From Phycicoccus sp. HDW14 (GTDB lineage: Bacteria > Actinomycetota > Actinomycetes > Actinomycetales > Dermatophilaceae): a stretch of DNA of 64,000 bases. This document shows, piece after piece, positions 39,456-53,898 of the stretch. Made by a program: the position numbers and the translations under genes. The notes below the pieces were generated by a model. The model saw only the letters and a list, made by a program, of their open reading frames with translations, did not search any database and had not been told where the DNA came from. Position 1 is the stretch's first letter. Each line of letters starts with the position of its first letter. The stretch is from NCBI RefSeq assembly GCF_011383005.1, contig NZ_CP049935.1, positions 248,001-312,000 of the forward strand. The letters run 5' to 3'.

Positions 39456-39485
39456 CGACCCTACCCTCACGTGAGGGTAGGGTCG
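39456..39485. promoter_or_regulatory. 30-bp perfect palindrome upstream of the MerR/SulP genes
   Basis: The 15-bp arms CGACCCTACCCTCAC and GTGAGGGTAGGGTCG meet without a spacer. The site lies 76 bp before the MerR start and 19 bp after ychF. MerR proteins bind long dyads in promoter spacers, so this is the best operator candidate. As RNA it would also form a strong hairpin and could terminate ychF. Confidence 0.65.
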
Positions 39486-39560
39486 GGCGTGGCCCGGATG
39501 ACGCCGTGCGCGGGCCGAGCCACTCCCACCCCGCGCGGCCCGATGACGAGAGCGGTGTGC

Positions 39561-39958
39561 ATGGGTCCCGACGCGCAGGTCGCCACGATGCAGATCGGCG
39601 ACGTCGCCGAGCGCACCGGGCTGAGCCTGCGCACCATCCGCCACTACGAGGAGGTCGGGCTCCTGCCGGAGGCCCGGCGCAGCAGCGGCGGGTTCCGCCT
39701 CTACGGCGAGGAGGCCGTGGCCCGGTTGCTGCTCATCAAGCGGATGAAGCCGCTGGACTTCACCCTCGAGGAGATGCGCGACCTCATCGACCTGCGTGAC
39801 CGGCTGGCCGCCCTCGCCTGTCGGCGGCGACGCGCGCCACCCTCACCGAACGGCTCGCCACGTACCAGAGCCTCGTCGAGCACCAGCTCGCCGTCCTGCG
39901 CGAGCGGGTCGACAGCGCCCAGGCCTTCGCCGACCAGCTGCGCGACGAGCTGCACTAG
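39561..39958 (+). CDS. MerR-family transcriptional regulator (frameshifted)
   Basis: The N-terminal MerR helix-turn-helix is [20 protein letters not shown] with the wing [20 protein letters not shown]. The C-terminal coiled coil ([25 protein letters not shown]-like) dimerises the protein. There is no cysteine in the effector end, so it is not a thiol-metal sensor of the usual kind. One C is missing near 39817; repair gives 132 residues. ATG 39561 is used; the in-frame ATG at 39588 is also possible. Confidence 0.85.
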
Positions 39959-40047
39959 AGCCCGCCCCGCCCCAGACCTCGCCCGCGCACGACGTCGTGC
40001 CGGCACCGGCCCGTGTGGCCGTCCGCACGTCACCCAGGAGCAGCACC

Positions 40048-41579
40048 GTGTCCGAGACCCCGCCCAGCCCCGCGCTGGACCAGACGACGACGTTCCCGCA
40101 CGAACGGGACGTCACCTCCGTGCGCGCCGCCCTGCGCTCGCCGAAGCGGCTGCGCACCGAGGTGCTCGCCGGCCTCGTCGTCGCCCTCGCCCTGATCCCC
40201 GAGGCCATCTCGTTCTCGATCATCGCCGGCGTCGACCCCCGCGTCGGGCTGTTCGCGTCGTTCACGATGGCGGTCTCGATTGCCTTCCTCGGCGGCCGTC
40301 CGGCGATGATCTCGGCGGCGACCGGCGCCGTGGCCCTCGTCATCGCGCCGGTGATGCGCCAGTACGGTATGGACCACCTCATCGCCACCGTCATCCTCGG
40401 TGGGCTGATCCAGGTCGTCCTCGGGGTGTTCGGGGTGGCCCGGCTGATGCGCTTCGTGCCCCGCTCGGTCATGGTCGGCTTCGTCAACGCCCTGGCCATC
40501 CTCATCTTCATGGCCCAGGTCCCGCACCTCGTCGGGGTCCCGTGGGCGGTCTACCCCTCGTCGCGGTGGGCATCGTCGTCATGGTGCTCCTGCCCCGGGT
40601 GACGACCGCGGTGCCCGCGCCCCTGGTCGCCATCGTCGGGCTCACCGTGGTCACCGTCGGCGCCGCGATCGCCGTGCCGACCGTCGGCGACGAGGGCCGG
40701 CTCCCCGACAGCCTGCCCGGCCTGTTCGTCCCCGACGTTCCGCTGACCCTCGAGACCCTCAGGATCATCGGCCCCTACGCGCTGGCCATGGCGCTGGTCG
40801 GGCTCATGGAGTCGCTGATGACGGCCAAGCTCGTCGACGACGTCACCGACACCCACTCGCACAAGACCCGCGAGGCCTGGGGTCAGGGCGCCGCCAACAT
40901 CATCACCGGCTTCTTCGGCGGCATGGGCGGCTGCGCCATGATCGGCCAGACGATGATCAACGTGAAGGCCTCCGGCGCCCGGACCCGCATCTCCACGTTC
41001 CTCGCAGGCACCTTCCTGCTCGTCCTCGTCGTCGGGCTCGGCGACCTCGTCGGGATGATCCCGATGGCCGCCCTGGTCGCGGTGATGGTCATGGTCTCGG
41101 TCGGCACCTTCGACTGGCACAGCATCAGGCCGGCCACCCTGCGCCGGATGCCCCGGAGCGAGACGCTCGTCATGGTCTCGACCGTGGTGGTCGTCGTCGT
41201 CACCCACAACCTCGCCATCGGGGTCATCGTCGGTGTCGTCGTCGCGATGGTCCTGTTCGCCCGACGCGTCGCCCACTTCACCCAGGTCGTCGACGTCGCC
41301 CACCCCGACGAGGACACGCGCGTGTACGCCGTCGTGGGTGAGCTGTTCTTCGCCTCCAGCAACGACCTGGTCCACCAGTTCGACTACGTGGGCGACCCCC
41401 CGAACGTCGTGATCGACCTGTCCCGCAGCCACATCTGGGACGCCTCGTCGGTCGCCACGCTCGACGCCATCCGGACCAGGTACGCGGCCAAGGGCAAGGA
41501 GGTCACCGTCGTGGGTCTGAACGACGCGAGCCAGGAGCGGCACGAGCGGCTCGCCGGGCACGTCACCGGGGCGCACTGA
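40048..41579 (+). CDS. SulP-family anion transporter with STAS domain (frameshifted)
   Basis: A 510-residue permease after repair. The SulP core begins [20 protein letters not shown] and includes [36 protein letters not shown] and [19 protein letters not shown]. The C-terminal STAS domain has [20 protein letters not shown]. One C is missing in the C4 run at 40554-40557. Substrates of the family are sulfate or bicarbonate; the sulfur genes that follow favour sulfate or a related anion, by inference. It follows the MerR gene by 89 bp and overlaps the convergent TauE-like gene by 17 bp. Confidence 0.9.
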
Positions 41580-42390
41580 CCCCCGGCGCGTCGTGCACCC
41601 GCGCGAGGGCGGTGCTGTGGGGTGGCTCGAGGAGCTGGCTCCCGGCACGCACGCCGACGTAGCCGGCGACGAGCACCAGCATGACGGCGAACGCCCGCGT
41701 GAGTGTCGTCCCGGAGACGTTCTCGGAGAGGCGCTTTCCGAGGAGTGAGGCAGCGACGGCCGCTGCTGCGAAGGGGAGGACGACCGCCCAGGGGATGCCG
41801 CCGTGACCGATCCGCTCCACGAAGGCGGCGAGGCTGGTGAGGGAGATGACGACGAGCGACGTGCCGACCGCCGTGGGCATCCCGAAGCCGAGCGCGAGGA
41901 CCAGCGCGGGCACGATGAGGAACCCGCCGCCCACCCCGAGGAAGCCGGTCAGGAAGCCGACGACGAGGGCCACGCAGACGACCCGGGCCAGGTGGTTCCC
42001 ACCGGCGCCGGTGCGCGCCGGAACGGGGGAGGCGGCCCGTGACCGCCGGTACATCGCGACCGCCGCGACGAGCATCAGCCCGGCGAAGGCGAGCAGCAGC
42101 ACCTGCGGGTCGACCGCGCGGTTGAGCAGCGTGCCGCCGACCGATGCCGGGACGCCCAGTGCCCCGACGACGAGCGCGGCCCGCCAGTCGACGCGGCCGG
42201 CGCGGGCGTGGCTGACCGCGGCCACGATCGCCGTCACCCCGACGATGACGAGCGACGCGGTGGTGGCCTCCCGGGGGTCGAGGAGGAGCGCGTAGACGAG
42301 CACCGGGACGGCGAGGATCGAGCCCCCGCCGCCGAGGGCCCCCATCGACAGGCCGATGACGGCCCCGGCGACGATCGTGACGACGAGCAC
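41563..42390 (-). CDS. TSUP/TauE-SafE family anion exporter
   Basis: A 275-residue membrane protein with two homologous halves. Each carries the family glycine motif: GLSMGALGGGGSILAVPVLV near the N-terminus and GFLTGFLGVGGGFLIVPALV in the middle. TSUP proteins move sulfite, thiosulfate or sulfoacetate. It starts 2 bp after the CstB-like gene and so is cotranscribed with it. The tauE gene of the staphylococcal cst operon is the closest parallel. Confidence 0.88.
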   Translation of the reverse strand: MLVVTIVAGAVIGLSMGALGGGGSILAVPVLVYALLLDPREATTASLVIVGVTAIVAAVSHARAGRVDWRAALVVGALGVPASVGGTLLNRAVDPQVLLLAFAGLMLVAAVAMYRRSRAASPVPARTGAGGNHLARVVCVALVVGFLTGFLGVGGGFLIVPALVLALGFGMPTAVGTSLVVISLTSLAAFVERIGHGGIPWAVVLPFAAAAVAASLLGKRLSENVSGTTLTRAFAVMLVLVAGYVGVRAGSQLLEPPHSTALARVHDAPGVSAPR

Positions 42391-42392
42391 CG

Positions 42393-43772
42393 TCAGGCGC
42401 TCCGGCGGTGCGCCTGGTCCCAGGCGCCGTAGCCGCCGAGGATGTCGGACACGTCGGCAAGACCCTTGGCGCGCAACAGGCTCGCAGCGACGCTGCTGCG
42501 CCAGCCGCCGGCGCAGTAGACCAGCACGGGGCGCCCGGCATCGAGCTCGCCCGCACGGTCGGCCAGCTCGGCCAGCGGGATGTGACGGGCTCCGGGGACC
42601 ATCCCGGCGGCGACCTCCCCGGCGTTGCGGATGTCGACGACCTGTACGTCGGGGTCGGCCACCGCGTCGTCCGCGGCGGACGCACCGAGCCGGCTGGCCC
42701 GCTCGACGTCGTCCTGGTGCGACAGGAAGTAGACCTCGGGGTCCGGGAGGTAGCCCAGGACGTGGTCGAAACCGATGCGGGCGAAGCGCGTCGCAACCTC
42801 CTGCTCGACGCCCTCGGGGGCGATGACGACGACCGGCTGCCCGGGCGCGAACACCATCCCCACCGTCTCGGCCATCCGACCGTCGGCAGGCACGTTGACC
42901 GAGCCGCGCAGGTGCCCGGCGGCGAACTCCTGCACGTCGCGGGCGTCGTGCAGGACGGCCCCGGACGCCAGCGCCTGCTCGACCTCGGCGTCGGTGAGGG
43001 CGGGGACGGTCGCATCGGTCTCACGCACGGTCCGCTCCTGCTTGTTGAGCGTCGCGTTGTAGACGAAGTAGCCGGGAGCGGCCGGCTGGCCCTCCGTGAC
43101 GACGGCGAGGAACTGCTCCTCGGACATCGGCTGGCACGCGTAGTTGAAGGCCCGCTGGGCGCCGATCGTCGACTGCCGCTCCGTGGACAGGTTCTTGCCG
43201 CAGGCCGACCCTGCGCCGTGGGCGGGGAAGACCCGCACCGCGTCGGGGAGGCCCATCAGCCTGTGCTGCACCGAGTCGTAGAGCATCCGGCCCAGCTCGT
43301 CGGCGCTGACGCCGACCGAGGCGAGGAGGTCGGGGCGGCCGACGTCGCCGATGAACAGGGCGTCGCCGGTGAGCACGCCGTAGGGGACCTCGTCGCCCGG
43401 GTGCTCGAGGACGAGGACGCTGATCGACTCCGGCGTGTGACCGGGGGTCGCCATCACCTCGAGGGTGACCTCGCCGAGGCTGATCCGCTCGCCGTCCGCG
43501 AGGTGGCGGACCGGGAAGTCGGCGGACGCGGCCTCGCCGTAGCCGATCCAGGCGCCGGTCTCCCGGGCGAGCTCGAGGTGGCCGGAGACGAAGTCCGCGT
43601 GGAAGTGGGTGTTGACGACCCCCATGATCGTCAGGCCCCTGGCCGCGGCGTCGTCGAGGTACTCCTCGACGTCCCGTCGGGGGTCGACGACGACGGCCTT
43701 CCCGGTCGACTCGTCGCCGACGAGATAGGACGCCTGGGACAGGCACTCGAGGTAGTACTGGGTGAAGATCAT
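42393..43772 (-). CDS. CstB-like persulfide dioxygenase/rhodanese fusion
   Basis: 459 residues in three parts. The metallo-beta-lactamase domain has THFHADFVSGH (H56, H58, D60), GHTPESIS and GDALFIGDVGRPDLL, as in ETHE1-type persulfide dioxygenases. A middle rhodanese-like domain (about 265-350) has no catalytic cysteine (VVVIAPEGVEQ). The C-terminal rhodanese has VYCAGGWRSS with C420. This order matches S. aureus CstB, which oxidises thiol persulfides and makes thiosulfate. Position 61 is Phe where many relatives have His. It diverges from the rhodanese/CstR operon across an operator at 43818. Confidence 0.88.
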   Translation of the reverse strand: MIFTQYYLECLSQASYLVGDESTGKAVVVDPRRDVEEYLDDAAARGLTIMGVVNTHFHADFVSGHLELARETGAWIGYGEAASADFPVRHLADGERISLGEVTLEVMATPGHTPESISVLVLEHPGDEVPYGVLTGDALFIGDVGRPDLLASVGVSADELGRMLYDSVQHRLMGLPDAVRVFPAHGAGSACGKNLSTERQSTIGAQRAFNYACQPMSEEQFLAVVTEGQPAAPGYFVYNATLNKQERTVRETDATVPALTDAEVEQALASGAVLHDARDVQEFAAGHLRGSVNVPADGRMAETVGMVFAPGQPVVVIAPEGVEQEVATRFARIGFDHVLGYLPDPEVYFLSHQDDVERASRLGASAADDAVADPDVQVVDIRNAGEVAAGMVPGARHIPLAELADRAGELDAGRPVLVYCAGGWRSSVAASLLRAKGLADVSDILGGYGAWDQAHRRSA

Positions 43773-43817: not shown

Positions 43818-43833
43818 ATACCCCAGGGGGTAT
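43818..43833. promoter_or_regulatory. CstR-type operator 1 (CstB-like/rhodanese divergent promoter)
   Basis: ATACCCCAGGGGGTAT, one of six related 16-bp palindromes, 10 bp before the rhodanese ATG and 45 bp before the CstB-like ATG. It is well placed to control both directions. Confidence 0.8.
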
Positions 43834-43843
43834 GCTTGTCGGT

Positions 43844-44164
43844 ATGACCCAGCTCGTCGACATCCCCACGCTCCGCGCCCGGCACGCCGACGGCGCCTTC
43901 GTCCTCGACGTCCGCGAACCGGCCGAGTACCTGTCCGGCCACGTGCCCGGTGCGGTGCTCGCCCCCATGAGCCGCATCACCTCGGCGCTGGGACCCGTGC
44001 CCCGCGACCGGGTCGTGCACGTCATCTGCCAGAGCGGCAACCGCAGCCGCTCGATGACCGGCCTGCTCACCTCGCTCGGCTACGACGCCGTGTCCGTCGA
44101 GGGCGGGACGTCCGCCTGGGTCGCGGCGGGTGGTCCGCTCGTCCGCGGTCCGCTGGCCGCGTGA
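43844..44164 (+). CDS. Single-domain rhodanese
   Basis: A 106-residue sulfurtransferase. The active-site loop is CQSGNRSRS with C62, preceded by VLDVREPAEYLSGHVPGAV. Such proteins carry persulfide sulfur between low-molecular thiols, sulfite and enzymes. It is the first gene of the plus-strand operon containing the cstR-like repressor. Confidence 0.92.
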   Translation: MTQLVDIPTLRARHADGAFVLDVREPAEYLSGHVPGAVLAPMSRITSALGPVPRDRVVHVICQSGNRSRSMTGLLTSLGYDAVSVEGGTSAWVAAGGPLVRGPLAA

Positions 44165-44177
44165 TGGTGGACCCGCG

Positions 44178-44465
44178 ATGACGACGCGAGCGCCCGGACC
44201 GGGTGCACCGCTCGACGCCGACGAGATGCAGGCCGTCGTCGCCCGGCTCAACCGCGCCCGGGGCCAGCTGGGCGGCATCGTGAAGATGATCGAGGAGGGC
44301 CGCGCGTGCCGCGACATCGTCACCCAGCTGTCGGCGGTCTCCACGGCGGTCGACCGGGCCGGTTTCGCCGTCATCGCCCTCGGCCTGCGCCAGTGCCTCC
44401 TCGACCCGACCTCACGGCAGGTCGACGTCGACGCGATGGAGAAGCTCTTCCTCTCCCTCGCCTGA
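44178..44465 (+). CDS. cstR: CsoR-family repressor of the CstR (persulfide-sensing) type
   Basis: A 95-residue all-helical DUF156 protein. C44 (GRACRDIV) and C73 (LRQCLLD) are spaced 29 residues apart, as are C36 and C65 of M. tuberculosis CsoR. The copper histidine, four residues before the second cysteine, is replaced by G69. Cys-Cys without His is the mark of CstR, which forms di- and trisulfide bridges with persulfides and leaves DNA. Together with the sulfur genes around it this argues against copper sensing. It probably binds the six ATACCC-N4-GGGTAT sites described here. Confidence 0.85.
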   Translation: MTTRAPGPGAPLDADEMQAVVARLNRARGQLGGIVKMIEEGRACRDIVTQLSAVSTAVDRAGFAVIALGLRQCLLDPTSRQVDVDAMEKLFLSLA

Positions 44466-44571
44466 GGGCGGCGACCGCGGCGGATCGATGTATCCCTGCG
44501 GACCGCTCGGCCGTCCAAGGAGGTGACCGGTCCCACCCGGGACCGGCCCGACCAGAAGGAGAACACCCGCC

Positions 44572-44778
44572 ATGACCGCCAACGTCGGCTCCACCGACAA
44601 GATCGTCCGCCTCGTCCTCGCCCTCGTGGCGCTCGGCGTCGCGTTGCTCACCGGGCTGGGGTCCGTCCTCGGCATCGTGCTGCTCGTCGTGGCTGCCGTG
44701 CTGGCCGTCACGGCGTTCACCGGCTTCTGCCCGCTCTACCGGGTGTTCGGCCTGAGCACCTGCCCGGTCCGCCGCTGA
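44572..44778 (+). CDS. DUF2892 (YgaP-like) inner-membrane protein
   Basis: A 68-residue protein with two hydrophobic helices (IVRLVLALVALGVALLTGLG and VLGIVLLVVAAVLAVTAFTG). The conserved DUF2892 end GFCPLYRVFGLSTC carries two cysteines. In YgaP this domain anchors a rhodanese to the membrane; here the rhodanese is a separate gene in the same operon. Confidence 0.9.
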   Translation: MTANVGSTDKIVRLVLALVALGVALLTGLGSVLGIVLLVVAAVLAVTAFTGFCPLYRVFGLSTCPVRR

Positions 44779-44799
44779 GCCCCCGGCCCGGGTCCGCCC

Positions 44800-45552
44800 A
44801 TGCCCCTCGACCCCGACGTCCTCGCGGAGGAGCTCCCCGGTCTGGTGCGCTACGCCGTGTACCTGACGCGGAACCGGGCCGATGCGGACGACCTGGTGCA
44901 GGACACCCTCGAGCGCGCCGTGGCCCGGGGTGGCACGTTCCGGGGCGACAGCTCCCCCACCACGTGGCTGCACCGGGTCATGCACCGGCGCTTCCTCGAC
45001 ACCCGACGGCGGCGCACCCCGGAACCGACCGCCGACGAGGAGCTGATGGCCCGTGTCGAGGCGGCCTGGCGGGACGACGCGTACACCGTCGACCCCGAGG
45101 TGGTGCTCGCGAGGGCGGAGGAGCGCGCCGACCTGCGGGATGCGTTGGAGCACCTGCCGGTCATCCTGCGCTCGGCGGTCGTCCTGCACGACATGCAGGG
45201 ACTGACCTCTGCGGAGGTGGCGACGGTGCACGGCATCGGCGTACCGGCCGCGAAGCAACGGCTGCGGCGTGGGAGGGCCCTGCTCGTCACCCTGCTCGCC
45301 GACGACGCGGACCGTCACCTGGCCATGGAGGGAGTACCCATGCGCTGCTCGGAGGCCCGCTCGCTCGTCGGCGACTACCTCGACGACGAGCTGGGAGCTC
45401 GCGAGCGGTCCCTCCTCGAGGGGCACCTCGCGTCCTGCCCGACCTGCCCCGGCCTCTACGCGAGCATCGTCGGGGTGTCGGCGGCGGTCGGCCGGCTGCG
45501 CGACCCCGACTCGGTGGTGCCCCCGGCCATCGCCGAGCGGCTCAGCCTGTGA
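44800..45552 (+). CDS. ECF sigma factor with fused C-terminal zinc-finger anti-sigma domain
   Basis: 250 residues. Region 2 is RYAVYLTRNRADADDLVQDT with TWLHRVMHRRFLD, and region 4 is LEHLPVILRSAVVLHDMQG then SAEVATVHGIGVPAAKQRLRR. After about residue 180 comes a zf-HC2 anti-sigma domain (CSEARSLVGDYLDDELG, then HLASCPTC). An internal ATG at 45340 follows GGAGGGAG by 5 bp and would give the zinc-finger domain alone. It lies 21 bp after DUF2892 in the rhodanese/cstR operon. Its target promoters are unknown. Confidence 0.88.
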   Translation: MPLDPDVLAEELPGLVRYAVYLTRNRADADDLVQDTLERAVARGGTFRGDSSPTTWLHRVMHRRFLDTRRRRTPEPTADEELMARVEAAWRDDAYTVDPEVVLARAEERADLRDALEHLPVILRSAVVLHDMQGLTSAEVATVHGIGVPAAKQRLRRGRALLVTLLADDADRHLAMEGVPMRCSEARSLVGDYLDDELGARERSLLEGHLASCPTCPGLYASIVGVSAAVGRLRDPDSVVPPAIAERLSL

Positions 45553-45994
45553 CGACCTCGCCTCCGGCCTCCTGCCAGGCGCCGATGCCGCCGGCCAGGT
45601 GGTACGCGCCGGTGAAGCCCAGCTGCGCCATCGAGGCCACGGCCGCACCGGAGCGGTTGCCCGAGTGGCAGTAGACGGCGTACGGCGCGCCCGGGTCGAG
45701 GGCGGAGAGCCGGGCCGCGAAGTCGGGGGAGGAGACGTCGATGTTCACGGCGCCGGCCAGGTGGCCCTGCGCGAACTCCTGAGGGGTGCGCACGTCGACG
45801 ATCGTGGTGCCGGGGCGGTGCAGCGCCGCCGCGAAGTCGGCCGCGCCGAGCGCGCTGCCGGCCGCGGGGGCTGCGGAGGCCGTGGGTCCTCCGGACACGG
45901 CGACGGACGGCTCGGAGGAACCGCACCCCGAGGTGGCGAGGGTCCCGCCGAGGGCGAGCGCCAGGACGAGTGCGGTGGTCGTGCGACGGGTCAC
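45542..45994 (-). CDS. Rhodanese-like lipoprotein
   Basis: 150 residues from GTG 45994, giving a signal peptide (TTTALVLALALGGTLA) and a lipobox-like TSGC with C24. After a Ser/Ala/Pro linker, the rhodanese domain has VDVRTPQEFAQGHLAGAVNI and an active loop VYCHSGNRSG. It would act on the outer face of the membrane. The GTG overlaps the stop of the PIG-L gene. It converges with the sigma factor gene, overlapping it by 11 bp. Confidence 0.88.
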   Translation of the reverse strand: MTRRTTTALVLALALGGTLATSGCGSSEPSVAVSGGPTASAAPAAGSALGAADFAAALHRPGTTIVDVRTPQEFAQGHLAGAVNIDVSSPDFAARLSALDPGAPYAVYCHSGNRSGAAVASMAQLGFTGAYHLAGGIGAWQEAGGEVVTG

Positions 45995-46713
45995 GAGGAT
46001 GCTCCTGGGATGGTGGGTGCGGCGGGTGCGGTGGGCGTCGAGGGGGCGGCACCGGGGGTGCGCAGGTACTCGCGGTCGCCGAGCAGCTCGAGGCGGCGCC
46101 ACAGCACGCTGCCCGGCACGGCCTGGCTCGCGTGGCAGGCGATGGCCATCCGCTGACGCCGCCGTTCGACGGTGACCTCACGCAGGCCATCGGGCGGGTA
46201 CCCGGCGAACGCGGCCCCGTACTCGGCGTTCAGGCTGTCGGCGACGGACTGCGGCAGGGCCCACCCGAGCACCGGCAGGTCGGCGCGACCGGCGGCGCCC
46301 ATCGCGGCGACCGACGCCGCCGCGTGGTCGGGGTGTCCGGTGACGCCGGCGACGGGGTCGAAGACGAGGAGGCCGTCGGGCCGCGTCCGCTCGATGCTGC
46401 GGTCGACGTCCGCAGCGAGCAGGTCGGGGTCGACATTCGCGAGGGTCCCGTCCGGGTGGGCCATCGCGATCGTGGAGGCCATGCCGAGGACCTGCCCGGC
46501 AGAGGCGAGCTCGGCCGCCCGCACCGTGGCGAGGTCGACGGATCCGGCGCCCAGCGTCGAGGCCTCTCCTCGGGTCAGGCAGAGCACGTGGACCTCGGCG
46601 CCGCCCTCCGCGAACCGGTCGAGGAGGGCTCCGAGCGCGAACGACTCGTCGTCCGGGTGTGCCACGACGACGAGGACGCGCTGCCAGTCCGGGGGCCAGT
46701 GCACGGCACTCAC
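45991..46713 (-). CDS. PIG-L family deacetylase
   Basis: A 240-residue zinc hydrolase. The N-terminal metal motif is VVAHPDDESFALGALL and the second is VTGHPDHAAAS. The family includes MshB and Mca of mycothiol metabolism. Its place among persulfide genes suggests action on a mycothiol-derived or sugar-thiol adduct, which is inference. The GTG and stop overlap both neighbours. Confidence 0.85.
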   Translation of the reverse strand: MSAVHWPPDWQRVLVVVAHPDDESFALGALLDRFAEGGAEVHVLCLTRGEASTLGAGSVDLATVRAAELASAGQVLGMASTIAMAHPDGTLANVDPDLLAADVDRSIERTRPDGLLVFDPVAGVTGHPDHAAASVAAMGAAGRADLPVLGWALPQSVADSLNAEYGAAFAGYPPDGLREVTVERRRQRMAIACHASQAVPGSVLWRRLELLGDREYLRTPGAAPSTPTAPAAPTIPGASS

Positions 46714-47730
46714 TCCGCCACGCAGATGAGCCGACGGGCGGCCGCCCGCAGGGTGAGCGCGGCGACCGCCAACACGAGCAGCGTGGCGCCACCGAGGAGC
46801 AGGACGGCGACGACGTCGTAGGCCGCCTGCGGGCGGACGGCGGCCATCGAGACGGCGGCCGCGGACGCCGCCGCCAGGGAAAGGTGTAGGCCCACGCCGG
46901 CAGCCCGAACGGCAGCCGGCGCAGCTCGGGCACCTGGGCCAGGAGGAGCACGACGAAGACCATCGAGGCGTCGTAGAGGAGACGGACGGCCACGCCGTCG
47001 GCCGCACCGGTGAGCGCCTGCCAGGAGAGCATGGCCACGGCCGGCGGCGCCACGAAGATCGCGATGGTCGGCAGCAATCTCGGGGGAGCGGGGGGTCGTG
47101 CAGGAGGACCCGGTGCAGGAGCAGCGGGAGCAGCCCCATCCAGAAGACGAGGCCGACGCCGAACGCGAACCAGGCCAGCTCGACCGACCCCAACCGCGCG
47201 GCGGCCAGCGGCGTGACGACGTTGCCGACCACCGGGATGAACCATGCCGGGGTCACCTGGCCGAGGCCGATGTCCGGGCGGGAGAACCACGCGCTGAGCA
47301 CGGCCACCGTGACGGCGAGGTGGCCGACGGCACCGACCCACCACAGGGCCGACGCGAGCGCGGGCGCCACGTCCTGGCCTGCGGTGGCCAGCACGAGGAG
47401 CGAGATCGTCACGGTGGGCGCGAAGGTCATCCGCACCGGATGGCGCAGCTCGGCGCGCGCGGCGGCGGGGTGCCGGACCCACTTGAGCGTGTACAGGGCT
47501 GCGACGACGAGGAACGAGGCGCTCGCGAGGCCGAGGAGGGACAGGGCAGGCCATCGCGGCAGGTCCCACACCACGGCGGCGCGGCGCCAGGCCAGGGAGA
47601 GCCCGCCCAGCCCCATGACCGAGGCGAACAGGGTCACCGGTAGGTGTGCCAGGGAGTGCTCGGGGTCGTTCACGGCCGCTGTGGTCTGCGTGCCCGCCCC
47701 GGTCGGAGCAGTGTCGGTGTCAGTCACCAC
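46710..47730 (-). CDS. TDT/SLAC1-type channel or sulfite exporter-like protein (two frameshifts)
   Basis: Three frames join into a 340-residue protein with about 10 hydrophobic segments. Examples are HLPVTLFASVMGLGGLSLAW, MTFAPTVTISLLVLATAG, PAWFIPVVGNVVTPLAAARLG and AWFAFGVGLVFWMGLLPLLL. This is the tellurite-resistance/dicarboxylate transporter fold, which includes fungal sulfite pump Ssu1 and plant SLAC1. Bases are missing in the G5 run at 47082-47086 and near 46879. The GTG is chosen at 47730 because GAGGGA precedes it. Sulfite efflux fits the context but is not shown. Confidence 0.8.
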
Positions 47731-47752
47731 GGTGTCCCTCACGCGCCGAGTA

Positions 47753-47770
47753 TATACCCCTAGGGGTATA
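47753..47770. promoter_or_regulatory. CstR-type operator 2 (upstream of the TDT gene)
   Basis: TATACCCCTAGGGGTATA, a perfect 18-bp palindrome 23 bp before the chosen TDT start and 5 bp after the repaired stop of the RCK-type gene. It could give the downstream three genes their own promoter. Confidence 0.8.
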
Positions 47771-47774
47771 ACAG

Positions 47775-49074
47775 TCACAGCGGACCGGGGTGCTCCGGCG
47801 GCGGTCTCCCCGGTCGGTGAGCACTCCGACGAGACCGGCGTGGGCGTAGGCGACGACCGGGCGCCGGCCCCGCACGGACGCGCAGACCCAGGCGGCGGTC
47901 AGTGCCGAGACGTCCGTGACCCGACCGATCCGGAACAGCGACGTGGTCTCCTGCACGGCCGGGTCCTCGCCGGCCCGCAGCACCGTCTGCACGTCCGGAG
48001 CCAGGGCCAGGGCGCTGATGACGACCGCGACGTTGTCGAGGTCGTCGGACCCGAGCGCCGCCAGCGCGCGGGCCCGTACCAGTCCCACGCGCTCCAGCAC
48101 GGCACGCTCGGCCGCGTCGCCGATGACGACGGGCAGCCGGCTCGCCCGCGCGTGGGGGAGGTTGCGCGCCGCCGCCGTGCGCTCGACGAGGACGCACGGC
48201 ACGTCCACCTCCCGCAGGAGCTGGCCGACGCGCAGGCCGACCTGGCCGAGGCCGGACAGGATGACGTGGTCGCGCCGCGGGAGGCTGCGCGGCCCCACCA
48301 GTGAGGTCGTGCGGGTCCCGACGATCCAGTCGACGAGGCCCGCGACGAGAGCCCCGGTGAAGCCGATGCCGGCCAGCATGAGCAGTGCGGAGACCACCAG
48401 GTACCACCCGGGTGCGTCGTGGGCGGAGGCATCGGCCGGGCCGACGGTGGCGACCAGCCGTCCGGCCGCGTAGAAGGCGTCGGGGACGCCCTCGTGGAGC
48501 ACCGCCACGGCGAGGAGCCACTCGGTCGCGATGATCCCGGACAACCCCGCCAGCCCTGCGGCGAGCAGGCCCGGTGTGCCCCGTGCCGGCGGGGGAGCCA
48601 CCGGCCCAGTCGCTCGGCGGGGCCCGGGCGTCTCGGGTGGTACGGCCGCTGCACGGCGGTGCCGTCGTCGTCGACGACCACCCTGCTGGCGCCGCGACCG
48701 CCGAGCACGGCGAGGGCGCCCGGCTCGGTGCAGGCCGCCACCACCGAGGGTGCCGCGACGTCCGCCGGCGAGGTGACGGTGCAGTGCGGCGCCACGGAGG
48801 CGAGCTGGGCTCCGATGGTTCGGTCGAAGACGGTGACCACCATGGCGACCGAGGGCTGGAGGCTCTCGGCGAGCAGGGCGTAGCGCAGGGCGGCGACGTC
48901 GCCGCGCACGACGACTGCGACGCCGTCGACACCGCCGGCGAAGGCCGACCGGAGGGACGTCTCGTCCGGAGCGAGGAGGTGCAGGGTCGTGACGCCCTCG
49001 TCGGTGAGGAGGGTGCAGAGCAGCCGGGTCGCCTCGAGGTCGCCGATGACGACGACGCGTGGGGGAGTGGACAT
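47775..49074 (-). CDS. TrkA-N/RCK-type nucleotide-binding membrane protein (two frameshifts)
   Basis: The N-terminal Rossmann-like domain begins RVVVIGDLEATRLLCTLLTD. A middle region has two or three hydrophobic helices (LLAAGLAGLSGIIATEWLLA and VSALLMLAGIGFTGALVAGL). A second RCK domain is HVILSGLGQVGLRVGQLLRE with LPVVIGDAAERAVLERVG. It resembles potassium channel or ion-transport regulators but lacks a clear TVGYGD filter. Bases are missing in the G5 run at 48591-48595 and the G4 run at 47787-47790; repair gives 433 residues ending before operator 2. Confidence 0.75.
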
Positions 49075-49112
49075 CCGGTGCCTCGTCTCGGGTCGACCGA
49101 TGCCGGAACCAT

Positions 49113-49128
49113 ATACCCATGGGGGTAA
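49113..49128. promoter_or_regulatory. CstR-type operator 3 (upstream of the RCK-type gene)
   Basis: ATACCCATGGGGGTAA, the least perfect of the six sites, 38 bp before the minus-strand ATG at 49074. Confidence 0.7.
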
Positions 49129-49158
49129 GGATGGATGTGCCGTCGATCACGCGTGATG

Positions 49159-49174
49159 ATACCCCCAAGGGTAT
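49159..49174. promoter_or_regulatory. CstR-type operator 4 (upstream of the sulfide:quinone oxidoreductase gene)
   Basis: ATACCCCCAAGGGTAT, 35 bp before the plus-strand ATG at 49210. Its centre is 46 bp from that of operator 3, so each of the two divergent genes has its own site. Confidence 0.78.
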
Positions 49175-49209
49175 ATGGTGAGACCACCACCCACGTCGAA
49201 GGAGACGCC

Positions 49210-50667
49210 ATGGCTGACGTCGTCATCCTCGGGGCCGGAGTCGCCGGGCACACCGCCGCGCTCCACCTGAGCCGCCTGCTACCCCGGGGAAGCGCGGTCA
49301 CCGTCGTCTCCCCGAACTCGCAGTGGAACTGGATCCCCAGCAACATCTGGGTCGGCGTCGGGAGGATGCCCAAGGAGGCCGTCGTCTTCCCCCTCGCCCC
49401 CGTGTACGCGAAGAAGGGCATCGGCTACCGGCAGGCAAAGGCGGTCGCCATCCGCCCCGAGGGAGACCTGGACGACGAGCGGGGGGCCGTCGACGTCGTG
49501 TACACCAGCCCGGACCGGGCGGGGGAGTCCGAACGGATCCGGTACGACTACCTCGTCAACGCCACCGGGCCGCAGCTGAAGTTCGGGATGACGCCCGGGC
49601 TCGGTCCGGACGCCGGGCACACGGTCTCCGTCTGCACGGCCGACCACGCGGTGCACGCCGCCACCGAGCTGCGGGCGACGATCGAGCGCCTCCGGGCCGG
49701 TGAGCCGCAGACCCTCGTCGTCGGGATGGGCCACGGCACCTGCACCTGCGAGGGCGCCGCGTTCGAGTACGTCTTCAACGTCGACCACGAGCTGCGCGAA
49801 GCCGGTGTGCGCGACCGCGCCCGCCTCGTGTACCTGACCAACGAGGCGCACCTCGGCGACTTCGGAGTCGACGGGATGACGTTCGACGACCACGGCTTCG
49901 AGACGACGTCGGAGCTGTGGACCTCCAGCCTGTACCGCGAGCGGGGCGTCGAGGCGATCCTCGGCGCACACGTCCACCGGGTCGAGCCCGGCGTCGTCCA
50001 CTACGAGACCCTCGACGGCGAGATGCACGAGCTCGCCTTCGACTTCGGGATGCTCCTGCCGCCCTTCGGCGGGGTGGCGCTCGAGGCCTTCGACCGCGAG
50101 GGCGCCGACATCACGTCCGAGCTCTTCGCCCCCAGCGGCTTCATGAAGGTCGACGCCGACTACACCGCCAAGCCGTACGAGGAGTGGCGCGGCAGCGACT
50201 GGCCGAAGACCTACCAGGCGGTGGGCCACCCGAACGTCTTCGCAGTCGGCATCGCCTTCGCGCCACCGCACCAGATCTCCCGGCCGCGCAAGAGTCCCAA
50301 CGGCACCCTCATCGCCCCCTCGCCGCCGCGCACCGGGATGCCGTCCGGCGTCATGGGCAAGACGGCTGCGCTCACCATCGTCGACCGCATCAAGCACGGC
50401 GACGACCGCCCCGCCCACGAGGCGTCGATGGCCCACATGGGTGCGGCCTGCGTCGCCTCGGCCGGGGCCGGAATGCGTCGCGGGTCCGCCGCGGCGATGA
50501 CGATGATGCCCGTCGTTCCCGACTACTCCGTCCACCCGACCGGCCGCGACCTGGCCGACACCCGCGGGGAGATCGGGCTCAGCGGCCACTGGGCGAAGCT
50601 GATGATGCACCACCTCTTCATCCACAAGGCCAAGGGTCGCCTCGGCTGGCAGCTGATCCCGGAGTGA
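49210..50667 (+). CDS. sqr: Sulfide:quinone oxidoreductase-type FAD protein
   Basis: A 485-residue two-dinucleotide-domain flavoprotein. The FAD motif is VVILGAGVAGHTAALHL, with YDYLVNATGPQLKF as the second FAD contact. Cysteines suited to sulfide chemistry are C142, C178 and C180 (GHGTCTCEG) and about C414 (GAACVASAG). The C-terminal part (SGHWAKLMMHHLFIHKAKGR) is amphipathic, for membrane and quinone contact. It oxidises sulfide to a thiol persulfide or polysulfide and feeds quinone. It resembles large actinobacterial SQR relatives; the exact class is unsure. Confidence 0.85.
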   Translation: MADVVILGAGVAGHTAALHLSRLLPRGSAVTVVSPNSQWNWIPSNIWVGVGRMPKEAVVFPLAPVYAKKGIGYRQAKAVAIRPEGDLDDERGAVDVVYTSPDRAGESERIRYDYLVNATGPQLKFGMTPGLGPDAGHTVSVCTADHAVHAATELRATIERLRAGEPQTLVVGMGHGTCTCEGAAFEYVFNVDHELREAGVRDRARLVYLTNEAHLGDFGVDGMTFDDHGFETTSELWTSSLYRERGVEAILGAHVHRVEPGVVHYETLDGEMHELAFDFGMLLPPFGGVALEAFDREGADITSELFAPSGFMKVDADYTAKPYEEWRGSDWPKTYQAVGHPNVFAVGIAFAPPHQISRPRKSPNGTLIAPSPPRTGMPSGVMGKTAALTIVDRIKHGDDRPAHEASMAHMGAACVASAGAGMRRGSAAAMTMMPVVPDYSVHPTGRDLADTRGEIGLSGHWAKLMMHHLFIHKAKGRLGWQLIPE

Positions 50668-50672
50668 GCGAC

Positions 50673-50831
50673 ATGACGGACAAAACCCTCAGTTCCACCC
50701 CCGACCTGCGCAGCGCGCCGCTGCCCACGGCCCGGACCCTGCGGATGCGGCGGAACCTGCCCTACCAGGCGTACCGGTTCGCGGCGTTCAACCTGCGCAT
50801 CGTGCGGATGGTGCTCAAGGGTCATCACTGA
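50673..50831 (+). CDS. 52-residue basic small protein following sqr
   Basis: ATG 5 bp after the sqr stop. The sequence is Ser/Thr-rich at first, then strongly basic and aromatic (RMRRNLPYQAYRFAAFNLRI, ending VRMVLKGHH). No known domain. The codon use and tight spacing argue for a real gene cotranscribed with sqr. An amphipathic helix that docks SQR to the membrane is one guess. Confidence 0.6.
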   Translation: MTDKTLSSTPDLRSAPLPTARTLRMRRNLPYQAYRFAAFNLRIVRMVLKGHH

Positions 50832-50852
50832 CCCCACGCGCACCCCGGACGC

Positions 50853-50895
50853 ACGAGCGCGCCGGGCCCGACTCGATCGGGTCCGGCGCGCTCGT
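50853..50895. terminator. Bidirectional terminator after the sqr operon
   Basis: A 19-bp stem (ACGAGCGCGCCGGGCCCGA at 50853-50871, partner 50877-50895) with one G-U position and the loop CTCGA. It lies between two convergent genes. Confidence 0.82.
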
Positions 50896-50911
50896 CGGTG
50901 GTGTCAGGCGC

Positions 50912-51073
50912 TCAGCGGCCGAACATCTTGGCCAGGAAGCCGGTGCTCGGCTCGTCCTCGTGGCCCTGGCAGCGGTCGCTCGCGCGCACGCCGCGCATCA
51001 CGCTGTCGACGTGCTGGCCGCAGCCGGCCCAGGTCGTCTTGCCGCACTTGCGGCAGGTCACTGCTCGGCACAT
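50912..51073 (-). CDS. Cysteine-rich miniprotein (zinc-ribbon-like, 53 residues)
   Basis: Starts MCRAVTCRKCGKTTWAGCGQ and ends GFLAKMFGR. Five cysteines (C2, C7, C10, C18 and C35, in DRCQGHE) and nearby histidines could bind zinc or carry persulfides. GAGGAG lies before the ATG, and operator 5 lies 39 bp upstream, so it belongs to the sulfur regulon. Similar small proteins occur in actinobacteria, but I know of no function. Confidence 0.72.
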   Translation of the reverse strand: MCRAVTCRKCGKTTWAGCGQHVDSVMRGVRASDRCQGHEDEPSTGFLAKMFGR

Positions 51074-51111
51074 GCCGGTCTCCTCGAAGGTCGGGGTCGT
51101 GATTGGCAAGC

Positions 51112-51127
51112 ATACCCTAGGGGGTAT
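51112..51127. promoter_or_regulatory. CstR-type operator 5 (upstream of the cysteine-rich miniprotein)
   Basis: ATACCCTAGGGGGTAT, in the promoter region of the minus-strand miniprotein gene. It lies 152 bp from the divergent DUF2202 start and so may not control that gene. Confidence 0.78.
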
Positions 51128-51180
51128 CAATCGCGCGAACTCGGGTCGAGTCGTCGAGTCGCCGGTCGTGCGGTGTGGAC

Positions 51181-51198
51181 CTTCACGAAGGCTTCACG
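51181..51198 (+). promoter_or_regulatory. 11-bp-spaced direct repeat upstream of DUF2202 gene
   Basis: CTTCACG occurs at 51181-51187 and again at 51192-51198. An 11-bp period of direct half-sites is typical for OmpR-type response regulators, and such a regulator is encoded at 53121-53843. The assignment is a proposal. Confidence 0.4.
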
Positions 51199-51278
51199 GT
51201 CGGGACGGGAGTCCCTTCATCCGTTCGCGGTTCCCTGCGAGTGGACACCCCACGAACCGACCCACCGAGGAGAACACC

Positions 51279-52030
51279 ATGAGCACGACGATTCGCCGGA
51301 CGGCAGCGGGCCTGGGCATCGGCGCCCTCCTGGCCGCAGGCCTGGCCGTGGGCCAGGCGGCGGCCGGGACCGCGACGACGTCCTCGGCAGGCACCCCGAC
51401 GACGGCCCCGCCACGGACGCGGGTGCCCTGGCCGGCGCCCTGGCCTTCTCTCGCGAGGAGGAGCGGATGGCCCGCGACCTGTACGCCGCCCTGGCCGCCA
51501 CGTACGACGGTGCCCGGCCCTTCGGCATGATCACGACGAGCGAGGACCGGCACCTCGAGGCCGTGGGGGCCCTCCTCGAGCGCTACGACGTCGCCGACCC
51601 GTCCGTCGGCCTGGCCGCCGGGACCTATGCCGTCCCGGCCGTGCAGGACCTCTACGACGGCTGGCTCGCCGAGGGCCGGTCCTCACTCGCGGATGCCTAC
51701 CGCGTCGGTGTCGAGCTCGAGCAGCGCGACATCGCCGACCTCGAGAAGAGCATCGCGGCCGATCTCCCGGCGGACGTCGATGCCGTCCTAGGGCGCCTCC
51801 TCGACGGGTCCCGGAACCACCTGGCGGCCTTCGAGCGCGCCGTCTCCGGCGACCTCGGCACCGGCACCGGCACGGCTATGCCGGGCGAGCGCTCCCGCCG
51901 TGCCACCACCTCCGGCGGGATGATGGGCCCCGGTCGCCGCGGGGGCAACGGCCTCGGCAACGGCGCTCGCAACGGTTCGGGAAGCGGGGCGGGCGGGGGT
52001 TGCCCCTACGCCGACGTCGACCCCACCTGA
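51279..52030 (+). CDS. Secreted DUF2202 (ferritin-like) protein (frameshifted)
   Basis: A signal peptide (TIRRTAAGLGIGALLAAGLAVGQAAAG) leads to a DUF2202 domain. That domain has FSREEERMARDLYAALAATY, FGMITTSEDRHLEAVGALLE and QRDIADLEKSIA, the four-helix pattern with Glu/His residues for a dimetal site. The C-terminus is Gly/Asn/Arg-rich. One C is missing in the C4 run at 51406-51409; repair gives 250 residues. It overlaps the convergent kinase gene by 25 bp. Function unknown. Confidence 0.85.
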
Positions 52031-53124
52031 CCAGCCGGCACGAGCGGGAGCCGAGCCGTGAAGGTCGCCCCACGACCACGGCCCGGCGAGCGCGCGTCGA
52101 GGGTGCCGCCGTGCGCGGCGACAATGCCGCGCGCGATGGTGAGGCCGATGCCCGAGCCGGTGTCGGTGCCGCTGCGGCGCCGCTCGGGCACCCGGACGAA
52201 CCGTTCGAAGACGCGCTCGACGTCCTCGGGTGCCAGGCCCTCCCCGGTGTCGGTGACGGTCACCGAGGCCGTGCTGCCGGCGGAGGAGACCTCCACGTCG
52301 ATCCGCCCGCCGGAGCCCGTGGCCCGCAGGGCGTTGCCGACGAGGTTGGTCACCACCTGCCCGAGCCGGTCGCCATCGACGGCCACGACGACCGGGTCGT
52401 CCGGGACGCCGACCCCCAGGGCCACCCCGGCGTCCTCCGCCTGGGGGCGCAGCCGCTCGGCAGCGGTGGCGACCACGGTGCGCAGGTCCGCCGGCGCGAG
52501 CACCATCCCCAGGCGGCCCTCCTCCGAGCGGGAGAGGGCCGACAGGTCGTCGGAGAGCCGGCGGAGGCGGCGCACCTCGTCACTCACGAGGCCGAGGCGC
52601 TCCGGGCCCACGGCCAGCACGCCGTCGATCATCCCCTCCACGGACCCCTCGATGACGGTCAACGGGGTTCGCATCTCGTGGGCGACCTCGCCGAGGAGGC
52701 GCACGCGCCGCGACTCGGTCTCGGCGAGCGTGCGGCCGAGGGTGTTGACGTCGTCGGCGAGGAGGGCGAGCTCGTCCTCGCGGGGGCGGCCCACGTGCAC
52801 GTCGTAGCGACCGGCGGCGATCTCGCGGGTCGTGTCGCTGAGCTGGCGCAGCGGCCTGACGAGCCGTCGGGCCGCGACCGCGCCGAAGGCGGTGGCGGCC
52901 ACGACGCCGACGAGGACCCCGACGAGCAGCGCCTGGGTCACCGCGTCGGCCACCTGGCCCCGCAGCGTGCCACCCCGGCCCTGGCCCATCATCGAGCCCT
53001 GGCCGCCCATCATCCGGTCGAAGAGCGCCGGGGTGAGGGTGCGGACCACGAGGAAGGTGGCGAGCCCACCGAGCACGGCGACGAGGACGTGGGACAGGAC
53101 GAGTCGCACCGCGAGCCGGTTCAC
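52006..53124 (-). CDS. Membrane sensor histidine kinase
   Basis: 372 residues. Two membrane helices (about 7-28 and 65-86) flank a short extracytoplasmic loop rich in Met and Gly (DRMMGGQGSMMGQGRGG). A HAMP domain follows, then HisKA with VAHEMRTPLTVIEG, an N box (LVGNALRATG) and G boxes (DTGEGL and GSGIGL). The Met-rich loop could bind a soft metal or react with an oxidant. GTG overlaps the regulator stop. Confidence 0.92.
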   Translation of the reverse strand: MNRLAVRLVLSHVLVAVLGGLATFLVVRTLTPALFDRMMGGQGSMMGQGRGGTLRGQVADAVTQALLVGVLVGVVAATAFGAVAARRLVRPLRQLSDTTREIAAGRYDVHVGRPREDELALLADDVNTLGRTLAETESRRVRLLGEVAHEMRTPLTVIEGSVEGMIDGVLAVGPERLGLVSDEVRRLRRLSDDLSALSRSEEGRLGMVLAPADLRTVVATAAERLRPQAEDAGVALGVGVPDDPVVVAVDGDRLGQVVTNLVGNALRATGSGGRIDVEVSSAGSTASVTVTDTGEGLAPEDVERVFERFVRVPERRRSGTDTGSGIGLTIARGIVAAHGGTLDARSPGRGRGATFTARLPLVPAGQVGSTSA

Positions 53125-53843
53125 GACGCCGCCCCGGCCCGGGGTAGGAGGAACTTGTAGCCGACCCCTCGCACGGTACCGATGACGCGGGGGTCGGCGG
53201 CGTCGTCGCCGAGGGCCCGACGCACGCTGCGCACGTGGACGTCGACGACCCGCTCGTCCCCGTAGAAGTCGTAGCCCCAGACCTTCTCGAGCAGCTGGGC
53301 ACGAGAGAACACGCGCCCCGGCGACGCGGCGAGGGCGTGCAGCAGGTCGAACTCGAGGGTGGAGAGGCGCACCTCACCGTCGTCGACGGTCAGCTCGCGG
53401 CGCCGCTCGTCGAGGGTCAGCCGCTCGAAGCGCAGCACGCGCTCGTCCGGGACGTGCGGTGCCGCCCGGTCGGCCGAGCGGCGCAGCACGGTCCCGACCC
53501 GCGCGACCACCTCGCGGGGGCTGAACGGCTTGGTGACGTAGTCGTCGGCGCCGGCCCCGAGGCCCACGAGGGTGTCGACCTCGTCGGCGCGGGCGGTGAC
53601 GAGCAGCACGTAGACGTCGGACGAGCGACGGATGGTGCGCAGGACGTCGAGGCCGCCCAGGTCGGGAAGACCGATGTCGAGGAGGACGACGTCGGGCGCG
53701 GTGCCGTCGGTGGCGAGGCTGCGGCGGAGCGCCTCGGCTCCCGTGCCGGCCTCGGCGACGTCGAAGCCCTCGTGCTCGAGGTAGGCGCGCAGGACCGTCC
53801 GGATCTCCTGCTCGTCGTCGACGACGAGCACACGTCGGGCCAC
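53121..53843 (-). CDS. OmpR-family response regulator
   Basis: 240 residues. The receiver domain has VVDDEQEIRTVLRAYL and phospho-Asp in VVLLDIGLPDLGG, with K in DYVTKPFSPRE. The winged-helix output domain has LTVDDGEVRLSTLEFDLLHAL and VWGYDFYGDERVVDVHVRSV. GTG start. Operator 6 lies 39 bp upstream, so the two-component system itself appears to be under the sulfur repressor. Confidence 0.93.
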   Translation of the reverse strand: MARRVLVVDDEQEIRTVLRAYLEHEGFDVAEAGTGAEALRRSLATDGTAPDVVLLDIGLPDLGGLDVLRTIRRSSDVYVLLVTARADEVDTLVGLGAGADDYVTKPFSPREVVARVGTVLRRSADRAAPHVPDERVLRFERLTLDERRRELTVDDGEVRLSTLEFDLLHALAASPGRVFSRAQLLEKVWGYDFYGDERVVDVHVRSVRRALGDDAADPRVIGTVRGVGYKFLLPRAGAAS

Positions 53844-53882
53844 GGGACGACCTCCTCGTGGTCGGGGTCGGGCAGCACCATC

Positions 53883-53898
53883 ATACCCTTAGGGGTAT
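53883..53898. promoter_or_regulatory. CstR-type operator 6 (upstream of the two-component system)
   Basis: ATACCCTTAGGGGTAT, between the response regulator start (53843) and the aminotransferase stop (53932). It can only serve the minus-strand regulator and kinase genes. Confidence 0.78.

Follow-up and report, generated by a model that had tools for sequence, protein, structure and literature searches.

The described systems that come closest to the one treated here are the ScCsoR circuit of S. coelicolor, the cst genes of S. aureus, the YrkD/NreBC cluster of B. licheniformis and the cst-like operon of E. faecalis. Our own subject is a set of 16-bp palindromes, ATACCC-N4-GGGTAT, and the genes behind them in a 64-kb stretch of the chromosome of Phycicoccus sp. 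HDW14 (positions 248001-312000, called the window below). Very probably the palindromes serve as operators through which a CstR-type repressor system responds to sulfane sulfur. In S. coelicolor a two-cysteine CsoR-family repressor acts on a compatible 16-bp operator, ATACC-N6-GGTAT, present as one site at -9 from the transcription start, and controls the genes for a persulfide dioxygenase (PDO) with TauE, a rhodanese and the repressor itself; this circuit was shown by experiment, and polysulfide releases the repressor (PMC7533328). The circuit has only four members, and the study distinguishes it from those that contain sulfide:quinone reductase (SQR) (PMC7533328). The S. aureus cst genes share with Phycicoccus a CstB-like dioxygenase, TauE, SQR, a rhodanese and a CstR-type repressor (compare the review PMC9774590). 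In B. licheniformis a CstR-like repressor stands over sqr, pdo, rhodanese-like, tauE-like and thioredoxin-like genes together with a two-component system, in an 11-gene co-transcribed cluster whose sensor, NreB, is of the PAS type (PMC9918477). The E. faecalis CstR controls a CoA persulfide reductase (CoAPR) and rhodaneses, and the excerpted description names no SQR, PDO or miniprotein (PMC9405070). A CsoR-type sulfur regulator with dispersed sites has also been reported in Thermus (PMC10318464).

The Phycicoccus system differs from that of S. coelicolor in having up to nine promoters, which include those of SQR, a thioredoxin, a CoA-disulfide reductase (CoADR)-like protein, a Cys/His-rich miniprotein, a TDT operon, an RCK protein and a second repressor. 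It differs from the S. aureus genes in its several dispersed operons and extra genes, and from the B. licheniformis cluster in its separate operators and in a two-component pair of the OmpR/HAMP type, the operator of which is not conserved. A reading of the window made earlier from the sequence alone (the sequence-only reading) had proposed a persulfide-type regulon with more operons than the S. aureus set, which our analysis supports. It had also called this regulon far larger than known ones; this was overstated, because the S. coelicolor operator and core circuit and the 11-gene CstR cluster of B. licheniformis were already described. The kind of regulon is thus known, and what is new, as far as the open-licence literature shows, is the operon set, the fusion of the operator to the -10 element and the miniprotein; in Phycicoccus the operon of TDT, PIG-L and rhodanese genes and a channel-like RCK protein carrying the operator are new as well. 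Our searches of that literature listed no paper that deals with the miniprotein, with a regulon in Phycicoccus, or with RCK or TDT proteins within a CstR regulon. A local repeat thereby becomes a testable operator and a route to unknown sulfide-defence genes in actinobacteria. In Phycicoccus one switch would govern the oxidation of sulfide, the export of sulfite, thioredoxin and the reduction of CoA persulfide.

Allowing up to two mismatches, the window contains exactly six matches to ATACCC-N4-GGGTAT, all of them already noticed by the sequence-only reading, which had found none elsewhere in the window. Five are exact, at 43818, 47754, 49159, 51112 and 53883, and the sixth, at 49113 (ATACCCATGGGGGTAA), which had been listed under the same form, has one mismatch. 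The expectation by chance is 0.28 sites (standard deviation 0.49), the maximum among 100 shuffled sequences was 2, and none of the 100 reached six. The complete chromosome (4,071,256 bases in one contig) holds seven exact copies and three copies with one mismatch, no copy of a reversed control pattern, and a predicted 0.054 exact copies from base composition alone. We used only sites with no or one mismatch, because at two mismatches 28 places match the motif genome-wide and 9 match the control.

The distances from site to start codon are 45 bases for the dioxygenase, 10 for the rhodanese, 38 for RCK, 35 for SQR, 38 for the miniprotein and 39 for the response regulator; the TDT start is approximate, with the operator at 47754 directly before the gene. 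Outside the window, an exact copy at 3608697 lies 47 bases before a thioredoxin gene, which is followed by a second CsoR-family gene (CstR2), and a one-mismatch copy at 158762 lies 11 bases before a gene for a CoADR-like protein with a rhodanese domain, so that sites precede genes in this genome by 10-47 bp overall. The proposal that all six palindromes sit in promoter positions therefore agrees with the gaps measured in the window (10-45 bases), except that the ECF sigma factor gene it listed among the targets has no site of its own. The off-window targets, together with the PIG-L and lipoprotein-type rhodanese genes behind TDT, are additions to the gene list of that reading.

Regulon genes stand behind eight of the ten sites in this genome. 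The exact copy at 666267 was not accepted as an operator, since it coincides with the beginning (5' end) of a tRNA-Gln gene, and the string does so likewise in three of three sister loci (L034, L036, L043). Together with the bases upstream, the start of this tRNA-Gln(CTG) gene (L015 6267-6350) reads exactly like the operator and can mislead genome-wide scans. The one-mismatch site at 2019156, before a gene named PPDK by eye, was rejected too; it has TACTAC at the -10 position, PPDK is not a sulfur gene, and the site is probably a chance match.

A candidate repressor for these sites is encoded beside the first of them. CstR1 matches PF02583 (DUF156) at 2.8e-21 and 76.1 bits (cut-off 22.8), which gives it the CsoR-family fold, and its best PDB match is 7mq1/7mq2 (1.1e-10); 7MQ2 is named as CstR in the excerpted review PMC9774590. 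Its gene neighbours, a rhodanese, PDO, TauE and SQR, are those of the CstR subgroup. The genome has four CsoR-family genes, two of them of the copper type. CstR1 and CstR2 both have two cysteines 29 residues apart and glycine at the position of the copper-binding histidine, and the two copper-type paralogues keep the histidine and are neighbours of P-type ATPase-like genes (named by eye). Of 30 CstR-type homologues that were read, 28 have the cysteine pair at this spacing of 29 residues; a histidine four positions ahead of the second cysteine is seen in none of them, although two were read at an additional cysteine. In two genomes (L016 7541-8182; L075 6723-7346) the gene directly 3' of the CstR2-type gene encodes a class I methyltransferase; the one in L016 has a weak TehB match under the NCBIfam cut-off, and a role in thiol or sulfide methylation is possible.

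The motif and the repressor were compared in 39 genomes, our own included, counting exact motifs (the reversed control gave 0 in all 39) and calling a gene CstR-type if its bit score was better to CstR2 than to a copper paralogue, a rule that was set after the scores had been seen (lowest accepted score, 59.1 bits). The exact motif occurs in 28 genomes and a CstR-type gene in 30. All 28 motif-bearing genomes have a CstR-type gene and nine of the 11 motif-free genomes lack one (Fisher p 2.6e-7; by genus, counts 17/0/2/9, p 8e-6); kinship of the genomes lowers the weight of these p-values and leaves the pattern unaffected. Copper CsoR has matches in 37 of the 39 genomes and does not track the motif, with two motif-bearing genomes lacking it. 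Across genomes the motif goes with CstR-type repressors and not with the copper-type CsoR.

The position of the sites relative to the promoters also speaks for a role in repression. On the gene strand the last three bases of the operator are TAT, and when the third base after it is T a -10 element of the form TATNNT results. This T is present in 36 of 41 distinct sites directed at miniprotein genes; at the mirrored position beyond the opposite end of the operator the fit is 12 of 41, and T occurs at the two positions preceding +3 in 4 and 7 of the 41. Five of the nine promoters in our genome read TATNNT at this fixed offset: PDO (TATAGT), rhodanese, miniprotein and thioredoxin (each TATGCT) and the response regulator (TATGAT). 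In the genus set, whose loci were selected by site, T at +3 was found in 11/15 miniprotein, 8/13 PDO, 8/13 thioredoxin and 7/7 Rhd1 sites. Only two sigma70-like promoters were found between 43.6 and 54.0 kb of the window (0.2 expected), and both overlap an operator. Operator and -10 element thus tend to be fused, which makes repression by promoter occlusion likely.

The mechanism that we propose on these grounds is as follows. Reduced CstR1 and CstR2 would bind the operators and exclude RNA polymerase. Persulfides or polysulfides would cross-link Cys44 and Cys73 of CstR1 and the repressor would leave the DNA, a release by sulfane sulfur modelled on the S. coelicolor work and on CstR. Once derepressed, SQR would convert H2S to persulfide, the CstB-like dioxygenase would convert persulfide to sulfite and the rhodaneses would transfer sulfur; sulfite would be exported by TauE and perhaps also by TDT, and persulfides would be reduced by thioredoxin and the CoADR-rhodanese protein. 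The miniprotein would be made as well, its chemistry being left unspecified in the model.

The genes and sites of the window are collected in Table 1.

Table 1. Candidate operators, regulon genes and neighbouring genes; coordinates are counted from the first base of the window.
Feature	Position	Strand	Remarks
TauE/SafE sulfite exporter	41563..42390	-	PF01925 3e-48; directly behind dioxygenase
CstB-like persulfide dioxygenase (PDO)	42393..43772	-	metallo-beta-lactamase and rhodanese domains (Pfam)
Operator 1	43818..43833	.	exact; bidirectional: PDO-TauE leftwards (-10 TATAGT), rhodanese-CstR1 rightwards (-10 TATGCT)
Single-domain rhodanese	43844..44164	+	PF00581
CstR1, CsoR-family repressor	44178..44465	+	Cys44 and Cys73, copper His absent; PF02583
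YgaP-like membrane protein	44572..44778	+	PF11127; 106-bp gap after CstR1; membership uncertain
ECF sigma factor with zf-HC2 domain	44800..45552	+	membership uncertain
Lipoprotein-type rhodanese	45542..46102	-	PF00581; behind PIG-L
PIG-L family deacetylase	45991..46680	-	PF02585; behind TDT
TDT/SLAC1 family transporter	46710..47740	-	PF03595; two frameshifts in assembly; start approximate; intact orthologue in L048
RCK/K+-channel-like membrane protein	47720..49074	-	TrkA_N; one frameshift; pore motif TVGPA, C-terminal CxC
Operator 2	47754..47769	-	exact; between hexamers of sigma70-like promoter before TDT operon
Operator 3	49113..49128	-	one mismatch; RCK gene 38 bp on
Operator 4	49159..49174	+	exact; SQR gene 35 bp on
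Sulfide:quinone reductase-like flavoprotein (SQR)	49210..50667	+	best PDB matches are SQRs, 8.9e-37
52-residue protein	50673..50831	+	conserved behind SQR in L048, L051, L061, L087
53-residue Cys/His-rich miniprotein	50912..51073	-	pattern MC-x4-C-x2-C-GKTTWAGCGQH, then C, mostly C-x2-H
Operator 5	51112..51127	-	exact; Cys-rich miniprotein 38 bp on; TATGCT that side, TATCAA DUF2202 side
DUF2202 gene	51279..52030	+	PF09968; frameshifted; neighbour, membership unsupported
Sensor kinase, HAMP-HisKA-HATPase	52006..53124	-	Met-rich sensor loop
OmpR-type response regulator	53121..53843	-	from domain search
Operator 6	53883..53898	-	exact; response regulator 39 bp on (TATGAT); not conserved in 3 orthologues

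Among the core sulfur genes, the dioxygenase has the domain composition of CstB, with PDB matches to 3tp9 over residues 3-452 and to 3r2u, which we take to be S. aureus CstB, over residues 1-448 of 459; it reaches no NCBIfam cut-off. SQR scores 45 bits against the NCBIfam SQR model, the cut-off of which is 525. The CoADR-like protein (gene at 158790, outside the window) matches the full NCBIfam model, followed by a rhodanese domain, at 415 bits (cut-off 579), so that it may work like a CoA-disulfide or CoA-persulfide reductase while formally standing outside that family. Sister loci were picked because they contain sites, and the fractions obtained from them are therefore biased and should be read as footprints, not as rates. 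Genes behind a site in these loci encode the CstB-like dioxygenase and another class of dioxygenase (33-36% identical), thioredoxin, SQR, CoADR, TDT, the miniprotein, and rhodanese together with CstR; TauE, PIG-L and the lipoprotein-type rhodanese occur there as well. At the sister loci L041, L052, L072 and L068 exact operators also precede, by 154-162 bp, a gene that by eye resembles thioredoxin reductase and, by 23 bp, one that by eye resembles AhpD.

The miniprotein is the first gene to stand out by this route, and it often stands apart with its own operator. It belongs to no family in Pfam or NCBIfam. Cys2, Cys7, Cys10, Cys18, His21 and Cys35 are invariant in sets of 21 and 48 sequences. 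Its predicted structure (mean pLDDT 76.8) is a hairpin with a short helix, for which Foldseek gave no PDB match at E <= 0.001; a profile search of PDB sequences gave matches only at E 0.2 and 6.7. An alignment-based scan of named genomes, blind to the site, returned at least 583 relatives, the best 80 of which were examined, a choice that leans to close relatives; these 80 are spread over many genera of actinobacteria, and one comes from a record labelled Acidobacteria. The site lies within 150 bp of the gene in exact form in 39 and with at most one mismatch in 41 of the 80, where about 1.5 would be expected from its overall density in those loci (119 per 913,052 bases), which supports membership of the miniprotein in the regulon. 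In 39 of the 41 the site is 26-57 bp before the start, and in the others 69 and 131 bp. A second set gave 24 of 30 loci, fetched from 40 matches, with a site (at most one mismatch; 20 exact) within 150 bp, and partly overlaps the earlier loci. The suggestion that the system belongs to "this lineage" is accordingly too narrow, operator and miniprotein both occurring in many actinobacterial genera.

None of the other searched proteins was found within the fetched flank in 17 of the 41 site-bearing loci, and a CstR gene lies within that flank in 30 of the 39 loci without a site. Across the 39 genomes used above, the presence of the miniprotein agrees with that of CstR in 36 (28 with both, 8 with neither; p 6e-6, by genus 1e-4), the exceptions being G037 with the miniprotein only and G019 and G038 with CstR only. 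Before the miniprotein genes of four more loci (L145, L162, L178, L187) the spacing is N3, ATACCC-N3-GGGTAT, and the repressor there may accept a different spacing or have evolved to it. Our guess is that the miniprotein is a zinc protein or a persulfide-carrying thiol protein. We regard with some sympathy, though as slightly short of an even chance, the wider reading in which it is a widespread actinobacterial persulfide-defence protein under CstR (a thiol or zinc protein acting as sulfane-sulfur acceptor, carrier or buffer) and in which, in Phycicoccus, the operator also drives the RCK protein, which has an altered pore motif and a C-terminal CxC and is perhaps gated by persulfide; such gating, if true, would link sulfide stress to ion flux.

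How far the regulon extends beyond its core is less certain. The true regulon could be limited to PDO-TauE, rhodanese-CstR, SQR, thioredoxin, CoADR and the miniprotein, with RCK, the TDT operon, the two-component system, the ECF sigma factor and DUF2202 as hitchhikers; we consider this rather unlikely, yet it is the most serious of the alternatives. For the two-component system and the ECF gene, both proposed as members by the sequence-only reading, and for DUF2202 the evidence agrees with this narrower regulon: none of three response-regulator orthologues has the site, the ECF gene is siteless and separated from the repressor by the 106-bp gap and a small gene, and the promoter at operator 5 does not point towards DUF2202. 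We rejected DUF2202 as a target of that operator, from which it is about 151 bp distant, with TATCAA, not a -10 match, on its side. For the TDT operon there is evidence against the narrower regulon. An exact site is right before the gene in our genome, L048 and L061, and a TDT-type gene (named by eye) in a different taxonomic family, at L023, starts 104 bp from a site; there is none nearby in L051. The gene order TDT, PIG-L, rhodanese is kept in L048, and the PIG-L orthologue in L067 has an exact site of its own 45 bp upstream. The intact L048 TDT orthologue exceeds the Pfam cut-off for SLAC1 and stays below those of NCBIfam tdt (152.7 against 237 bits) and TehA (150.4 against 342).

The RCK protein gives a mixed picture. 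The selectivity filter of K+ channels is TVGYG, and our protein and its orthologues, in which the TrkA_N domain is present, read TVGPA, TTGPA or TVGFV. It is rare in the order, with 4 of 297 sampled genomes (E <= 1e-30, own included, five candidates scored per genome). RCK and SQR face each other in L048, L051 and L061, and one or two sites lie in the gap between them, 86-176 bp from the RCK start; the L064 gene lacks a site of its own, and the L075 gene has none at all. For the three RCK genes found in a different taxonomic family, the fetched 4 kb contain no site even when two mismatches are allowed. This rarity and these positions would suit a hitchhiker, but RCK has its own site at 38 bp in the window, L051 and L061 also have two sites (at most one mismatch each) in the gap between RCK and SQR, and in L064 RCK directly follows a site-bearing miniprotein gene.

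It might also be argued that the copper-type CsoR paralogues are the proteins that bind the palindromes, which would make copper the signal for the sulfur genes. Within the CsoR family operators do resemble one another, and both copper-type genes lie beside P-type ATPase-like genes. We hold this very improbable, for G026 and G033 have the motif with no match to a copper-type CsoR, G034 has only a cross-hit at its CstR gene, and nine genomes have a copper-type CsoR with motif and CstR both absent. The palindrome near the second copper csoR gene is a variant, GTACCCCTAGGGGCAT, lying between a sensor-kinase gene and the P-type ATPase-like and copper CsoR genes (G000 2764142-2764157; L020 1643-1658). 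It differs from our motif at both ends and is a possible operator of the copper CsoR.

Several observations weigh against the assignment of the sites to CstR, or limit its reach. G018 and G038 have CstR without the exact motif, though in G018 a site with one mismatch precedes the miniprotein gene. The operator type is common to both CstR-type paralogues and does not tell which of them acts at which promoter. Four of the nine promoters in our genome do not fit the -10 fusion (TATATA before TDT, where a shift of two bases gives TATACT; TATATG before RCK and before SQR; TATAGC before CoADR), and in the genus set T is at +3 in 2/6 SQR and 1/4 CoADR sites. In spite of the site-based choice of loci, there is no site within 100 bp in 3/16 PDO, 5/12 rhodanese, 2/15 thioredoxin and 4/19 miniprotein copies. 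In a survey of the phylum the motif was found in 102 of 298 genomes, and single sites can be due to chance because the reversed control occurs once in each of 11 of the 298. Three genomes of a distant actinobacterial family, G106, G158 and G075, carry 33, 20 and 15 exact copies. Of 15 loci fetched from them (L203-L217, two pairs of which overlap, with gene calls that are rough because they derive from window codon statistics), 14 match no regulon protein, CstR not having been sought in these genomes; only L204 has a match at E <= 1e-10, to CoADR and a kinase. The sequence-only reading had counted it as a refutation if the motif were as common away from sulfur genes as beside them; in our genome, with eight of ten sites before regulon genes, this is not the case, but these three genomes differ. 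The motif alone is therefore no proof outside genomes with CstR, and we rejected the site counts of the phylum as a measure of regulon size. These copies and the one in the tRNA gene could suggest that the palindromes are dispersed repeats or resemble terminators and regulate nothing, an idea that the sites before regulon genes, the co-occurrence with CstR and the -10 fusion make scarcely credible.

Of the genes with uncertain or unsupported membership, the YgaP-ECF pair is also found near SQR in L087. The folding of the stretch between CstR1 and YgaP is little better than that of shuffled sequences (z -1.51; 20 of 200 shuffles equally good or better) and so does not decide whether the operon extends to the ECF gene. 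The sensor kinase has no PAS domain listed at E <= 0.01 and does not qualify as an NreBC-type partner. Genes split by frameshifts occur at 39471-41579, 46710-47778, 47720-49074 and 51279-52030 of the window and at 9161-10578 of L015 (SulP-type transporter and LeuC, both by eye; TDT, RCK and DUF2202); assembly indels look likelier than decay, because TDT and RCK are intact in sister genomes. The DUF2202, kinase and regulator genes stay together as a trio beside the regulon (window 51279-53124; L049, L061, L073), and the DUF2202 protein and the sensor loop of the kinase are both rich in methionine (GGMMG, MMGRG); the trio is possibly a metal-sensing envelope system.

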